Source: Firmicutes bacterium CAG:631
GTDB lineage: Bacteria; Bacillota_I; Bacilli_A; RFN20; CAG-631
Direction of reading: 5' to 3'
Length of the DNA stretch: 31,992 bases
NCBI GenBank assembly: GCA_000433015.1
Contig: HF998011.1
Coordinates: forward strand, 1 to 31,992
Below, piece by piece: positions 4,894 to 30,345 of this stretch (positions are counted from its first letter, which is position 1; each line of letters opens with the position of its first letter). A model generated the notes under the pieces. The model searched no databases, had not been told where the DNA came from, and saw only the letters and a list, made by a program, of their open reading frames with translations. The position numbers and the translations under genes were made by a program.

Positions 4894-5289
4894 GTGGAAG
4901 AACTAAATATGCTAGATTTTGAACTCATAAAGAAAGCAAAAGAGGTAATAAAAAAGAACTATGATGGTCTAAAATTTAACCATACAGTTGGTTCAGCACT
5001 TAGATGCAAAGATGGAAGTGTATATGTAGGAGTTAATGTCTATTCTATTCATGGAGCTTGTGCTGAACAAGTGGCTTTAGGAAGTGCTATAACTAATGGA
5101 AAGAGAGAATTCGATACTATTGTTGCTATAAATGGAGAAAATGGTGAAATAATGTCACCTTGTGGAAATTGTCGCCAAATTTTTTCAGATTATATGCCTA
5201 ATTGTTTAGTCATCATTAAAGATGGAAATGATTTAAAAAAAATAAAAGCTAGCGAGTTGATTCCTTATTCTTATCACGCTCAATATTAG
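4894..5289 (+). CDS. Cytidine deaminase-fold enzyme, blasticidin-S-deaminase-like
   Basis: The 131-residue product has the zinc and proton-shuttle motif GACAEQVALGSA (Cys56, Glu58) and PCGNCRQ (Cys90, Cys93). That is the C-A-E / P-C-x-x-C signature of the short cytidine/blasticidin-S deaminase family, which hydrolyses an amino group from a cytosine-type ring. GVNVY, VAINGENGEIMSPCGNCRQ and the C-terminal ELIPYSY resemble blasticidin S deaminase more than housekeeping Cdd, where HAE is usual. A GTG at 4894 is chosen because GAAAGGGGTG lies about 10 nt before it; the in-frame ATG at 4909 would be too distant. Whether it protects against a nucleoside antibiotic or salvages cytidine cannot be decided here. 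Confidence 0.85.
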   Translation: MEELNMLDFELIKKAKEVIKKNYDGLKFNHTVGSALRCKDGSVYVGVNVYSIHGACAEQVALGSAITNGKREFDTIVAINGENGEIMSPCGNCRQIFSDYMPNCLVIIKDGNDLKKIKASELIPYSYHAQY

Positions 5290-16822: not shown

Positions 16823-18190
16823 TTATTGTTCTTCTTGTGGTGAATCTTCACTTGCCGTTTCACTTTCTTTTTTACATGGCAAAATCACATTTAATAAAAT
16901 TCCTACAATGGCAGCAATAGCCATACTCGAAATTTCTATCATAGATTGATTAATCGTGATGGCAATAACTGCTCCTCCAAGCCCAATGACAAGCATACTA
17001 CTAATAATAATAAGATTTCGCGTTTTTGTTAAATCAATTTTTGAATCCACTAACACTCTTAAACCATTCGATGCTATAAATCCATATAAAACAATAGAGA
17101 TTCCTCCCATAACGCAACTAGGAATGGCCGAAATCAAGGCAATAAAAACATTACTAAATGAAAGTATCATCGCTAAAATGGCTGCAAGTCCTGTCACCCA
17201 TACCGAAGCTACTTTTGTCATACCAACAACCGATGTATTTTCACCATAGGTGGTATTGGCTGGTCCTCCCAACATGGCTGCTACACTGGTTGCAATCCCA
17301 TCTCCTAGTAAAGTTTTATCAAGTCCTGGATCTTCTAAATAATCTTCTCCAGTAATTTTAGATAAAACGCTATGATCACCAATATGTTCACAAGCTGTTA
17401 CAAAGGCCAAAGGAATAACGGGTAATGCTCCAATTAAATTCACTTTATTAAAATGGATGGATGTTCCTAAAACATCATAGGTTGCATCCTTTAAGGAAAG
17501 AAAATGAAATTCTGGAATCTTAAACCACTGCGCTGGGGATTTGATGATTTCAATAAATTCAGTAAAATCAACAAGTCCAAAAATTGCTGATAAGATAAAG
17601 CCTCCTGCAATGGCTAATAAAAATGGAATGATTTTCATAAATTTTGTTCCCTTTAAAGCAAACATAGCGACCATCAATAGACAAGCAATAGCAATCAAAA
17701 TCATTTTCCATTGTTGTAAATGGCTTACATTTTCAATTGAAGCGACAAGCCCAGCATTGGAAATTGCACTTGTACTTAATCCAAGTCCAATAATCATAAT
17801 CATTGGCCCAACAATAATTGGCGGTAATACTTTTTTTATCCATCCTTTTCCAAAAAAACGAACGGCTAAGGCAATTAAACAATAAATCACCCCTACAAAA
17901 AACATTCCTGTAAAAACAGCTCCTAAGCCATTATTTTTCATTAAAGATTGAATGACTGGAATGTAAGCAAAACTACTACCTAAATAAACTGGGACCTTTG
18001 CTTTGGTACACGCAATATAAATCAGTGTCCCTAATCCTGAAGTAAATAAAGCAACCGAAATTGGTAGTCCTGTTAAAATTGGAACTAAAACGGTCGCTCC
18101 AAACATTGCAAAGACATGTTGAAAACTTAAAAGCAACCACTTTAATTTACTTTTTGGTTTGTCTTTAGCATTTAAAATCATTTTTTCCAT
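16823..18190 (-). CDS. uraA: Uracil permease, NCS2 family (UraA type)
   Basis: The 455-residue membrane protein has about 14 hydrophobic segments. FQHVFAMFGATVLVPILTG at the N-terminus, ACEHIGDH, and GGPANTTYGENTSVVGMT are UraA hallmarks. The Glu residues in the last two motifs bind the pyrimidine and couple to protons in the E. coli protein. It should import uracil for pyrimidine salvage. GGAGGG precedes the ATG. Xanthine/uric acid members of NCS2 have different motifs, so uracil is favoured. Upstream lies an attenuator-like leader (18254-18433) that would tie expression to pyrimidine supply. No PyrR-binding consensus was seen there. Confidence 0.9.
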   Translation of the reverse strand: MEKMILNAKDKPKSKLKWLLLSFQHVFAMFGATVLVPILTGLPISVALFTSGLGTLIYIACTKAKVPVYLGSSFAYIPVIQSLMKNNGLGAVFTGMFFVGVIYCLIALAVRFFGKGWIKKVLPPIIVGPMIMIIGLGLSTSAISNAGLVASIENVSHLQQWKMILIAIACLLMVAMFALKGTKFMKIIPFLLAIAGGFILSAIFGLVDFTEFIEIIKSPAQWFKIPEFHFLSLKDATYDVLGTSIHFNKVNLIGALPVIPLAFVTACEHIGDHSVLSKITGEDYLEDPGLDKTLLGDGIATSVAAMLGGPANTTYGENTSVVGMTKVASVWVTGLAAILAMILSFSNVFIALISAIPSCVMGGISIVLYGFIASNGLRVLVDSKIDLTKTRNLIIISSMLVIGLGGAVIAITINQSMIEISSMAIAAIVGILLNVILPCKKESETASEDSPQEEQ

Positions 18191-18253
18191 TCTTTTCCCT
18201 CCTTGTTTCTATTTTTAAAGAATCAAATGATTTCTTTATTTCCTTAGTAAATT

Positions 18254-18285
18254 TAAAAAAAACACTTTATCCAAAGATAAAGTGT
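18254..18285 (-). terminator. Leader terminator (attenuator) in front of uraA
   Basis: On the minus strand ACACTTTATC-TTTG-GATAAAGTGT forms a perfect 10-bp stem (18285 to 18262... read leftward) followed by eight U residues. It lies between the promoter and the permease start, 64 bp before the coding region, and would end most transcripts unless disrupted. The 5' arm begins 3 nt after the leader ORF stop, so a ribosome at that stop would cover it. Confidence 0.85.
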
Positions 18286-18287
18286 CT

Positions 18288-18380
18288 CTAAAAAGAAATA
18301 AAGAAGAAAAAGGGGCCAAAAAAGAATAAAATAATGTTTTTAAAATACTCAGAATGTATTTTTTTCGATTCATTATTCAT
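18288..18380 (-). CDS. Phe-rich 30-residue leader peptide of uraA
   Basis: AAAGGGGG lies just before an ATG at 18380, itself about 18 nt after the predicted transcription start. The peptide starts MNNESKKIHSEYFKN and ends ILFFFGPFFFFISF, with about 9 Phe in its last 13 residues, then TAG at 18290-18288. The end is encoded by a long U-rich stretch of mRNA. This is the layout of the E. coli pyrBI leader, where polymerase slows at the U run when UTP is low and the trailing ribosome blocks the terminator. A pheA-like Phe-sensing mode is the alternative, but it fits the permease poorly and no clear alternative antiterminator was found. CCCCTTT inside the ORF could also pair with its own AAAGGGG ribosome site. 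Confidence 0.7.
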   Translation of the reverse strand: MNNESKKIHSEYFKNIILFFFGPFFFFISF

Positions 18381-18404
18381 TTCCCCCTTTACTTTTTCTG
18401 CTCT

Positions 18405-18433
18405 ATTATATTTTAAAAAAAAATAAAAGTGAA
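18405..18433 (-). promoter_or_regulatory. Promoter of the uraA leader
   Basis: On the minus strand TTCACT (18433-18428) and TATAAT (18410-18405) are separated by 17 bp. The predicted start near 18398 puts the leader ribosome site almost at the 5' end of the RNA. Confidence 0.7.
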
Positions 18434-18557: not shown

Positions 18558-19403
18558 CTAATACCCCATATCATGTTTATACAGATGTGGGGTTTTATAT
18601 TGCAAAGCATATGCTGGACGTTCGTGATTGAACCAATGTATGTATGCCTTGATAAACTTGTTTATATCATCACAATGCTTTAAATCAAAATCATAAAACA
18701 TCTCATCTTTCATCCAACCGTTAATTGATTCCATAATTGGATTATCTGTTGGAGTTCCTGCTCGAGACATAGAATGTTTCATGTTAATATTAGTTAGAAG
18801 CTCGTTATAGCTTCTGGAAGAATAAACCGAACCTTGGTCTGTGTGAAGAATGGTAACCTGGTCAGTTTGTTCTTTTTTAATTAGTTTTATTACTTCTTTA
18901 AGTCCATCGTGGTATGTTCTTGGATCGCCCTCTCTAGAACTAAGCCTGTAAGATACTATTTCGTTATTGAATGTATCAAGATACAATGTTAATTCATAAT
19001 GGATTCCCTTGTACCAGAACATTGTCATATCTGACACAATGATTTCATATGGTTTTGATGCATTCCAATTTCCACAAACTAGATTTGGAAATTCAAGTTT
19101 TTCCTCTTTTGGCCTTCTCCATTTAATTCTAGGTGCTTGAGATTTTATCCCTGCATATTTGCAACATACATGAACATAATTTGGCTTTAATATCAATCCA
19201 TATTTTTGCTTTAAATACGCTGAGATCCATCTATATCCATGAGTTTTATGTTTGTTATGAACCTCTTGAATAATCTTTAGATTAGATTCTCTTCTTTTTA
19301 CCCATTCTGGCTTATTAATTTGACGATTTTTCCATTTATAATATCCACTTCGATTTACATCCATGATTGAACATAGAAATTTAATTGGATATTTGTTAGA
19401 CAA
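18558..19403 (-). CDS. IS3-family transposase OrfB (integrase core)
   Basis: The 281-residue frame has the DDE catalytic core: SDMTMFW with the first Asp, LHTDQGSVYSS with the second, and NPIMESINGWMKDEMF with the Glu. The N-terminal part has the helix-turn-helix YGYRW-like segment (KTHGYRWISAYLKQKYG). The same frame is open upstream through KEFEIIELLSNKYP. The enzyme is therefore probably made as an OrfAB fusion by a -1 slip at AAAAAG (19429-19424) in orfA, as in other IS3 members. The ATG at 19403 gives OrfB alone. Confidence 0.92.
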   Translation of the reverse strand: MSNKYPIKFLCSIMDVNRSGYYKWKNRQINKPEWVKRRESNLKIIQEVHNKHKTHGYRWISAYLKQKYGLILKPNYVHVCCKYAGIKSQAPRIKWRRPKEEKLEFPNLVCGNWNASKPYEIIVSDMTMFWYKGIHYELTLYLDTFNNEIVSYRLSSREGDPRTYHDGLKEVIKLIKKEQTDQVTILHTDQGSVYSSRSYNELLTNINMKHSMSRAGTPTDNPIMESINGWMKDEMFYDFDLKHCDDINKFIKAYIHWFNHERPAYALQYKTPHLYKHDMGY

Positions 19404-19411
19404 GAGTTCGA

Positions 19412-19792
19412 TTATTTCGAATTCTTTTTGTTGATAATAACGTATTCTTTTCTTTGACCAACTCCTTTCACTGAGTAACCTTTTTTTAATCGTTCACACT
19501 CAACTTCCTTCTTAGCTAATTCGAGCCTTAACCTTTCAATTTCGGTAAGATTCTTTTTGGTATGTAATGCTGCATATGGATTTCCCTTTTTATGTTTTCC
19601 AACTTTTGATGAAAACCCCTTAATGCCTTCATTTCTATAAGTTTCAACCCATGTCCACAATAGACTACGAGAAACACCATATTTTCTTGAAATGGAATAT
19701 GACGATTCTTCACCATTGATTAATTCAAGAACAATTGATTCTTTCTCTTCAGGGGAACGCCTATTGTTTTTAGTTCCTTTTGGTCTTCCCAT
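19412..19792 (-). CDS. IS3-family OrfA (DNA-binding subunit)
   Basis: The 126-residue product has a basic start (MGRPKGTKNNRRSP), a helix-turn-helix (SSYSISRKYGVSRSLLWTWVETY) and a C-terminal coiled-coil/leucine-zipper region (LTEIERLRLELAKKEVECERL). OrfA binds the terminal repeats and regulates transposition. Near its end the codons AAC AAA AAG give a slippery site at 19429-19424 for -1 frameshifting into orfB. The ATG follows an AAGGAGG-like site. Confidence 0.9.
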   Translation of the reverse strand: MGRPKGTKNNRRSPEEKESIVLELINGEESSYSISRKYGVSRSLLWTWVETYRNEGIKGFSSKVGKHKKGNPYAALHTKKNLTEIERLRLELAKKEVECERLKKGYSVKGVGQRKEYVIINKKNSK

Positions 19793-27892: not shown

Positions 27893-30253
27893 TTATTGTA
27901 AGGTTTGTCGAATATCAAAAAAATTTTTCCAAGGATCTTTTTTGGTTTTGATGCGCATTAAAACATCCTCCATTGTAAATTGGTCAGGTGTGACATTTTT
28001 TAATTCTTGATAAGAAATGGGAACTGAAACTCGTCCATTTTTGACACGAATAGAATAAGGTGCAACACTCGTTGCTTTTTTAATATTGCGCATCCAATCA
28101 ATAAAAATCTTATTTTTTCGTTGATTTTTTTGCATATTTGCCGTATAGCGATCAGGCCATTTTTGTTCCATGAGTTGGGCAACATGTCTTGCAAAATCAC
28201 GAAACTTTTCCCATTTTACTTTTGCTTGAAAAGGAACGACGACATGATATCCTTTGTTGCCACTAGTTTTTAAAAAAGAAACTAATGATAAGTCATCTAA
28301 AATTTGTTTTAAATCTTTTACTCCTTGACGAACTTTTGCCAAACTTAATTTTTCATCGGGATCTAAATCAAAAACCATGATATCGGGTTGATTTAGTTTT
28401 TGAACTTGACTTCCCCAACAATGAAATTCAATGGTTCCTAATTGCGCTTGAGCCACAATTCCTTGCGTATCTTGGATATAAAAATAAGTTTCTTTTTGAT
28501 TGTTGGTTTGAATGGTTTTTGTCTTTACGCCTTGTAAGGAATGATAAAGATGCTTTTTAAAAAAGCATTGATTGGTTCCTTTAGGACAACAAACCACCGA
28601 AAGAAAACGATTTTGAAGGTAAGGAAGCATAGAGGTACTTATTTGATCATAATACTGAATGATATCTATTTTTTTGATTTTTTCTTTTACAAAAACAATT
28701 TTATTAGGATTAGTAATAGGAATGTTTTGAATGACTAAATTGGATGAGTCTTGTTCTAAAAAAACATCTTTTACTTTTTTATCTTCTCTTAATCCTTTAA
28801 AACTTGCTTGCCTTAAAAGTCCTTCTTTTGTCCATTCTGCAAATTGAACTTCAGCAATGTATTTTGGCTTTAAAAAAACTATTTTTTCTTTACTTTTGAT
28901 GGCTTTAGAAAAATAATTTTTTGTGCCTTTTACTTCTTTCAATCGTTGAAGAAAATCTTTTTGCATTTTTTGACTCAGTCCTGTTCCCACTTTTCCTACA
29001 TATTGCAATTGTTTGTTTTCATAAACCCCTAATAGTAAAGCTTTTATTGGACGATCTTTTTTTTCAGAAAAAGTATAGCCACCAATCACGAATTCTTGTC
29101 GATGATAACATTTTATTTTTATCCAATCCTCACTACGATGGCCATGATAAGAAGAATCCATTTTTTTACCCATGATTCCTTCTAAATGGTATTTTTGAGC
29201 ATATGCAAATAATTGTTTTCCTTGATCAATAACATGTTGACTATATAATAAATGATCCAATGGTTCTTTTATCAATTGCGCTAAGATTTCTTTTCTTTGA
29301 ATCAAAGGAAGATTTCTTAAATCTTTTCCATCTAATGCAAGAATATCAAAAAGAACATAAGTTAAAGGACTATCATTTTTTTTCTTTATCCATTGTTGCA
29401 AATCTTGAAAATGACTCACTCCTTGTTGATCTAGTATTACCATTTCCCCATCTAATACCATACTTCGATGATTAGCAAGACGAATTAAAGAAGGAATGAC
29501 ATCTTCAAAAGAAGTTGAATAATCTTTTTGATTTCTACTTTTTAATTGCACTTTATCCTTTTCAATAAAAGCTATAACGCGATACCCATCGTATTTTATT
29601 TCATAAAGCCATCCCTTTTCTTTGGGAAAATCTTTTTTCAATTCTGCCAATTGAACATCGACTTGTAAAAAGGGATTTTTGAAGTTATTTTTTGCAATTT
29701 CTTTCATTGTTTTTTGGCTTAGAATACTCGTTTTAAAACGTGAAATGCCTGCTGTTTTTTTTGCATATTGATCTTTTTCTTTTATCAGTAACCATTGCTT
29801 TTTTTCATGATCCTTATTGATTCGAACAAGCGTCCATTTTCCTTTTAAACGTTTCCCATTTAAAGTCAATTTTAAAACTCCCTTTTTTAATCCTTCTTGC
29901 ATCAAACCTTCTACTTCATATTCTCCTTGATCCCAAAGCAAGACCGTTCCTCCACCATATTGCCCTTTTGGAATAACTCCTTCAAAGGTTGCATAATCAA
30001 GAGGATGATCTTCAACTTGAATGGCCAATCTTTTATCTAAAGGATTAAAAGAAGGACCTTTTGGAATGGCAAAACTGAATAATACACCTTCATATTCTAA
30101 GCGAAAATCAAAGTGAAGTTTGGTTGCATCATGCCATTGTACTACAAATTGTAAAGGTCCTTTCTTTTTTGACTTTCTTTTTTTCCCTTTCGGTTCATTT
30201 GTTTTTTGAAAATTTCTTTTTTGATGATAGGCTTTTAATTTTTTTTCTTTCAT
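27893..30253 (-). CDS. ligD: ATP-dependent DNA ligase D (PE-LIG-POL)
   Basis: The 786-residue enzyme has three modules. The N-terminal 3'-phosphoesterase (about residues 10-165) shows FVVQWHDATKLHFDFRL and GVIPKGQYGGGTV. The central ligase has the adenylated Lys220 in YEIKYDGYR, VLDGEMVILD, and EGIMGKKMDSSYHGHRSEDW. The C-terminal primase-polymerase (about 535 on) has the metal-binding DLDP (629-631) and the Asp in IFIDWMRN (719). It processes and seals double-strand breaks in end joining with Ku. The ATG at 30253 fits the family start (KAYHQKRNFQKTNEP); a TTG at 30328 is in frame but lacks a ribosome site. No ku gene is seen here. Confidence 0.92.
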   Translation of the reverse strand: MKEKKLKAYHQKRNFQKTNEPKGKKRKSKKKGPLQFVVQWHDATKLHFDFRLEYEGVLFSFAIPKGPSFNPLDKRLAIQVEDHPLDYATFEGVIPKGQYGGGTVLLWDQGEYEVEGLMQEGLKKGVLKLTLNGKRLKGKWTLVRINKDHEKKQWLLIKEKDQYAKKTAGISRFKTSILSQKTMKEIAKNNFKNPFLQVDVQLAELKKDFPKEKGWLYEIKYDGYRVIAFIEKDKVQLKSRNQKDYSTSFEDVIPSLIRLANHRSMVLDGEMVILDQQGVSHFQDLQQWIKKKNDSPLTYVLFDILALDGKDLRNLPLIQRKEILAQLIKEPLDHLLYSQHVIDQGKQLFAYAQKYHLEGIMGKKMDSSYHGHRSEDWIKIKCYHRQEFVIGGYTFSEKKDRPIKALLLGVYENKQLQYVGKVGTGLSQKMQKDFLQRLKEVKGTKNYFSKAIKSKEKIVFLKPKYIAEVQFAEWTKEGLLRQASFKGLREDKKVKDVFLEQDSSNLVIQNIPITNPNKIVFVKEKIKKIDIIQYYDQISTSMLPYLQNRFLSVVCCPKGTNQCFFKKHLYHSLQGVKTKTIQTNNQKETYFYIQDTQGIVAQAQLGTIEFHCWGSQVQKLNQPDIMVFDLDPDEKLSLAKVRQGVKDLKQILDDLSLVSFLKTSGNKGYHVVVPFQAKVKWEKFRDFARHVAQLMEQKWPDRYTANMQKNQRKNKIFIDWMRNIKKATSVAPYSIRVKNGRVSVPISYQELKNVTPDQFTMEDVLMRIKTKKDPWKNFFDIRQTLQ

Positions 30254-30310
30254 ATCTTTATTATGTTGCTTTTTTTCATTTTTATTATGGATTTTTATTG
30301 GCGTAGTAGA

Positions 30311-30316
30311 TATAAT
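30311..30316 (+). promoter_or_regulatory. Possible -10 element of asnA
   Basis: TATAAT lies 30 bp before the asnA start, in the ligD-asnA divergent region. The matching -35 is poor (GGATTT at about 17 bp), so this is a weak call. Confidence 0.35.
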
Positions 30317-30345
30317 AGTATCAGTCAAAAAAAGGAGTTTATTTT

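Follow-up and report, generated by a model that had tools for sequence, protein, structure and literature searches.

Organization of the uraA leader

The window, i.e., the whole 31,992-nt stretch of DNA that was analyzed, carries on its (−) strand a gene for a uracil permease (uraA) preceded by a leader with an intrinsic terminator. The encoded protein matched the NCBIfam ncs2 model TIGR00801 at 322 bits (above the cut-off) and the uracil permease model PRK10720 at 345 bits (below its cut-off of 477), and its best structure match was E. coli uracil permease (PDB 3qe7, E 4e-71). The features of the leader and its gene are as follows.

18405..18433, (−): promoter-like site TTCACT-17-TATAAT, 10 of 12 matches; number of such sites not above shuffles
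18383..18390, (−): Shine-Dalgarno (SD)-like sequence AAAGGGGG, near the 5′ end of the leader RNA
18288..18380, (−): ORF1, 30 codons, MNNESKKIHSEYFKNIILFFFGPFFFFISF followed by the stop; SD spacing 2 nt, stop 2 nt before the stem
18236..18373, (−): ORF2, 45 codons; SD spacing 9 nt, runs through the terminator, somewhat likelier leader frame
18288..18335, (−): U-rich zone 5′ of the terminator, T fraction 0.67 over 48 nt
18255..18285, (−): intrinsic terminator with a 10-bp stem, TTTG loop and T tail; 1 found, 0.1 expected
18197..18204, (−): uraA ribosome site AAGGAGGG
16823..18190, (−): uracil permease of the NCS2/UraA type, 455 aa (NCBIfam/PRK and PDB matches)

A promoter-like site, a ribosome site at the 5′ end of the RNA, a U-rich ORF, a perfect 10-bp terminator and uraA had been described in a first-pass annotation of this DNA, and all of these parts proved real. 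The terminator arms (18285-18276 and 18271-18262) pair perfectly over 10 bp, the T tail reaches position 18255, and the number of terminators found is well above chance. The promoter-like site is present as annotated, but a scan of the entire stretch yielded 2 such sites versus 2.3 expected by chance, so that the match is weak proof alone. The SD-like sequence starts about 15 nt 3′ of the −10 box, and uraA begins at ATG 18190 (−). The TAG of the 30-codon ORF, previously placed 3 nt before the stem, lies 2 nt from it. Upstream, IS3-family transposase genes (18558-19792) end about 125 nt from the leader promoter.

Two overlapping frames follow the SD-like sequence. ORF1 starts at ATG 18380, 2 nt 3′ of the SD, and ORF2 at ATG 18373, in another frame and 9 nt 3′ of the SD. 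ORF2 crosses the whole hairpin and stops at 18238-18236, 52 nt past the stem start. We lean slightly toward ORF2 as the leader frame because its start is better placed relative to the SD, while ORF1 matches the commonest geometry among relatives, with the stop at the stem. Thus, the 30-codon ORF of the first-pass annotation exists and is U-rich, but it is doubtful as the translated frame given the overlapping 45-codon ORF. The similarity of ORF1 and ORF2 to 70 leader peptides did not exceed that of half-wise shuffles, of which 85 and 75 in 100, respectively, scored as high. Whichever frame is translated, the U-rich zone is the identical DNA, and leader translation would reach the hairpin either way, with ORF2 crossing it and ORF1 stopping just short of it.

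Recurrence of the layout at uraA loci

Coupled attenuation that reads UTP is an established mechanism in E. coli, where pyrBI is preceded by the leader ORF pyrL. To be counted as a leader of this layout, an ORF had to start with ATG, have an SD score of at least 4.5, span 20-46 codons and end between −7 and +24 nt relative to the stem start of a terminator located 15-160 nt 5′ of the gene. A single script was applied to the best 80 uraA relatives, to further whole-genome loci and to another 46 upstream stretches. The main set of 120 loci consisted of the window, L001-L080 and 39 uraA loci fetched later; seven duplicates (L081, L082, L149, L156, L157, L159 and L161) were left out, and L133, L136, L139, L140, L141 and L143-L147 were not entered, most being repeats of the same genes (L141 reads like L010; L139 and L145 were not shown to be duplicates). 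A suitable terminator was present in 86 of the 120 loci. Removal of L004 and L009, which pass merely by catching the tail of the upstream gene, left 84 (with them, the count below becomes 52 of 86).

In 50 of these 84 uraA loci, an ATG ORF preceded by an SD stops at the hairpin or within it. The number of passes expected among the 84 was 0.27 in shuffles and 0.57 when the U-rich zone was shuffled apart, rising to 4.5 in shuffles that kept the SD and ATG in place. In comparison, 1 of 76 other genes from these loci conformed to the rule. When the rule, by then fixed, was applied to 46 additional loci of one order, 27 passed; two of these are duplicates of L079 and L027, and their removal gives 25 of 44. 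Among the 19 misses, we noted by eye look-alikes with GTG starts (L194, L197, L206 and L207) and one frame that runs through the hairpin (L187); a looser rule, which has no null control, lists 72 leaders in this one-order group. The best −10 match lies no more than 30 nt from the ATG in 38 of the 50 leaders, a count that has no control set. The window itself is one of the 34 misses, ORF1 by its SD spacing and ORF2 by its stop at +52.

The ORF and terminator layout, whose conservation the first-pass annotation had proposed to examine, holds in 50 of 84 uraA leaders but is absent from 15 of the 19 loci closest by uraA, with the leader present in L001, L005, L012 and L013 only. By eye, uraA lies behind the terminator of another gene in L002, L003, L004, L008, L009, L014 and L015; PyrR boxes take the place of the leader in L016 and L018, and a purine riboswitch does so in L011 and L017. 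Since the closest loci differ in this way, control of uraA is often exchanged among relatives.

Measured with the same script, E. coli pyrL resembles the window in having a short leader ORF with an SD near the 5′ end of the RNA and an intrinsic terminator just 5′ of a pyrimidine gene, at a distance of 30 nt in E. coli and 69 nt in the window. In both, an ORF runs through the hairpin, namely pyrL (44 codons) and ORF2 (45 codons), which stop 47 and 52 nt beyond the stem start, respectively. The two systems differ in phylum and in the gene controlled and, unlike pyrL, most uraA relatives have their stop at the hairpin or within it. The U-rich zone of the window is also longer and stronger, with a T fraction of 0.67 versus 0.29 over 48 nt; pyrL is not U-rich by this measure, although it holds a TTTTTCTT run. 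Moreover, the window has no U run right after the promoter, unlike E. coli pyrBI, for which a reiterative start at such a run is described (PMC6245113).

The U-rich zone and the leader peptide

In the 36 nt before the stem, the T fraction averaged 0.539 in leaders (n = 50) versus 0.338 in terminators before other genes (n = 76) and 0.311 at gene ends (n = 169). The high T content extends over about 48 nt next to the stem and beyond that drops sharply to about 0.25-0.35, both in leaders that stop at the stem and in those that stop within the hairpin. The U run had previously been read as a mostly Phe-encoding part of the ORF. ORF1 is indeed rich in Phe codons, but Phe matches base composition in the 50 relatives, at 88 of 600 codons versus 89.7 ± 7.0 expected.

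In seven close leader pairs, pN was 0.15 and pS 0.13, with ORF lengths equal within each pair. A pN/pS near 1 would fit an unimportant peptide and would also fit a lack of translation; owing to this ambiguity, it is the SD, the uninterrupted frames and the position of the stops that carry the case for translation. Together, U content and translation, rather than the peptide sequence, seem to matter. In one order, the peptides of L203, L205, L207, L208, L213, L215 and L216 share, by eye, a look-alike SK..LL.FAP or similar, which may represent shared ancestry or a real motif.

Distribution of PyrR

PyrR-dependent pyr attenuators of Bacilli place a terminator in the leaders of uracil permease genes, which are off when pyrimidines are plentiful. 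The uraA leaders share this placement, would share this response and, unlike those attenuators, are devoid of a PyrR box, the two being mutually exclusive in the loci examined. Specifically, the PyrR-box core CCNGAGAGG was found on neither strand of the window, and the PyrR-box pattern occurred in 0 of 50 leader uraA loci versus 20 of 70 non-leader loci, several of these 20 being strains of one genus (Streptococcus); 0.05 matches were expected per shuffle pass. This bears out the earlier statement that the leader contains no PyrR-binding consensus.

The first-pass annotation had also raised the presence of a pyrR gene elsewhere, and in the genomes of relatives this gene is nearly absent where the leader is present. 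It scored above the family cut-off in 1 of 24 leader genomes versus 7 of 12 others (Fisher p 0.0006), in a set of 36 genomes hand-picked from 80 loci with PyrR-box loci included on purpose and with looser leaders in three of the 24 (L026, L029 and L068). The exception is the genome of L050, which carries both the leader and PyrR. No PyrR gene was found in 70 further genomes of one order, whereas the controls B. subtilis and L. lactis were positive.

A probable UTP-reading, translation-coupled attenuator

We propose that, when UTP is ample, RNA polymerase would cross the U-rich zone fast and outrun the leader ribosome; with the ribosome left behind, the hairpin would fold and transcription would end before uraA. 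When UTP is scarce, the polymerase would slow over the U-rich zone, and the ribosome loaded at the 5′ end of the RNA would then catch up and cover the 5′ arm of the hairpin, so that uraA (uraA-upp in many relatives) would be transcribed. The leader peptide would be a by-product. The parts themselves, their recurrence, the U-rich zone and the anticorrelation with PyrR are observed, whereas we infer leader translation, UTP-dependent slowing and ribosome-dependent read-through.

A pyrBI-like, translation-coupled attenuator that reads UTP and is used instead of PyrR is, in our judgment, the probable mode of control. Considered separately, translation-coupled attenuation is very likely, and UTP as its signal is, if such coupling is accepted, nearly as likely. 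Coupling is supported by the anatomy of the leader, and the recurrence of the layout, the absence of PyrR boxes and the near absence of PyrR genes provide good support for translation-coupled attenuation as a replacement for PyrR. Of the UTP-sensitive coupled attenuation put forward in the first-pass annotation, the coupled part is therefore well supported, whereas for the signal we infer UTP from a U-rich zone that is not selected for Phe. Several observations speak against the UTP reading: the window does not pass the strict rule, few of the closest loci have the leader, pyrB and all but one of the upp loci have no leader of their own, the L050 genome combines leader and PyrR, and pyrL is not U-rich by our measure. 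In addition, the purine riboswitches that precede several related uraA genes allow for another substrate or signal.

Several reports on model organisms bear on this mechanism. In E. coli, termination is described as falling from about 90% to <10% once a stop codon was shifted to 5 bp upstream of the terminator, and as being abolished by ribosomes located at a stop codon a few bp upstream (PMC4824070); preventing termination at the pyrL terminator is reported to need tight coupling across pyrL (PMC5021804). In B. subtilis, transcription is reported to be uncoupled from translation, the polymerase outrunning the ribosomes, with terminators just after stop codons serving as a proxy (PMC7858274). 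Gene-end terminators of ordinary genes in L001-L080 lie a median of 6 nt after the stop, and 28% overlap it (n = 169), a spacing that, on sequence, resembles the one described for runaway transcription. The corresponding overlap among leaders is 84%, a comparison that is partly circular because the leaders were chosen within −7 to +24 nt. If the polymerase outruns the ribosome, folding of the leader hairpin should be the default outcome, prevented only if the polymerase is slowed, and a U-rich zone right before the hairpin is what a UTP-limited slow-down needs.

Other leader systems of Firmicutes share parts of this logic. In the tlrB and vmlR leaders of B. subtilis, polymerase pausing is reported to let the ribosome act on a terminator (PMC6851288, PMC12288461); these leaders differ in responding to antibiotics, and tlrB needs an arrest motif, whereas no peptide is conserved among the uraA leaders. 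In bacilli, hisS paralogues are preceded by histidine leader peptides, another case of Firmicute leader-peptide attenuation (PMC2965389); there an amino acid is sensed by codon runs, whereas the uraA leaders would rely on U content.

The pausing described for tlrB, where NusG buys time for leader translation (PMC6851288, PMC12288461), suggests a different reading, in which the attenuator is likewise coupled to translation but its pausing is set by NusG at TTNTTT, or it reads the overall state of translation rather than UTP. The U-rich zone of the window holds several TTNTTT, and TT[ACG]TTT occurred 93 times in 76 leaders versus 65.7 ± 7.1 expected. This excess is gone in the 49 leaders that are <70% alike (46 versus 42.0 ± 5.7), in which TTNTTT falls below chance (64 versus 87.3 ± 10.5), and the layout is found at uracil permeases and not at loci with PyrR boxes. 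We consider this reading unlikely.

Control by PyrR, which is what related loci usually have (20 of the 70 non-leader loci), or by an unknown riboswitch is much less probable still, given the missing box core. For a riboswitch, the window gave no Rfam match at the gathering score, including the purine riboswitch RF00167, and a search of the leader at E up to 10 gave weak sub-threshold matches alone, chiefly to plant microRNA models.

Equally hard to sustain is the idea that the ORF is a gene for a small (membrane) protein with an ordinary terminator that lies by chance before a uraA with its own promoter. The leader peptides are hydrophobic toward their end, and the gene-end terminators noted above are likewise close to stops, but the peptides are not conserved and their hydrophobicity follows from U. 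Furthermore, the gap from terminator to gene is short or moderate in 26 of 31 ORF-bearing uraA terminator entries, the layout is rare at other genes, and the promoter scan of the window revealed no promoter-like site between the terminator and uraA. Finally, a leader-peptide attenuator that senses Phe would account for the Phe codons abundant in ORF1, but these follow composition in the relatives, the ORF1 start is poorly placed and the gene is unrelated to Phe, so that we give this reading almost no weight.

The wider proposal is an even call: in Bacilli-like lineages that have no PyrR, uracil import would be controlled by a broad, repeatedly remade, peptide-independent class of attenuators that read UTP, despite default polymerase runaway and in some relatives behind a purine riboswitch. 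We found no published account of such a switch in open-access full text. If a pyrBI-like switch is widespread in PyrR-less Firmicute-like lineages, coupling can be conditional; such a switch would supply natural reporters of transcription-translation coupling and would account for pyrimidine control in lineages that have no PyrR.

Gene context in relatives

Within the fetched stretches, a UraA frame precedes 19 of 26 upp genes; therefore, the switch would often govern uptake together with the first salvage step. A leader of its own was found at 1 of 26 upp loci (L117) and at 0 of 5 loci of aspartate transcarbamylase (ATCase, pyrB) above the family cut-off. The one upp case comes from genome G150, in which uraA (L087) and a separate upp (L117) are each preceded by an SD-led short ORF ending at the terminator stem. 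ATCase scored above the cut-off in only 5 of 30 leader-type genomes, many of these genomes being incomplete drafts, and as it is so rare, many such genomes may depend on uracil uptake.

In five loci, a purine riboswitch lies upstream of the leader ORF and terminator before uraA: L001 (4658-4760), L012 (197-298), L134 (3141-3242, (−)), L142 (3101-3202, (−)) and L148 (2124-2225, (−)). Riboswitch and leader in series could possibly form a two-input gate for purines and pyrimidines.

Elsewhere in the window, the DNA upstream of cdd (4894-5289), judged by eye, contains no comparable leader. A tblastn search against plasmids gave matches of <60% only, and the ORF at 27893-30328 resembles, in its sequence features, an ATP-dependent DNA ligase of the LigD type.
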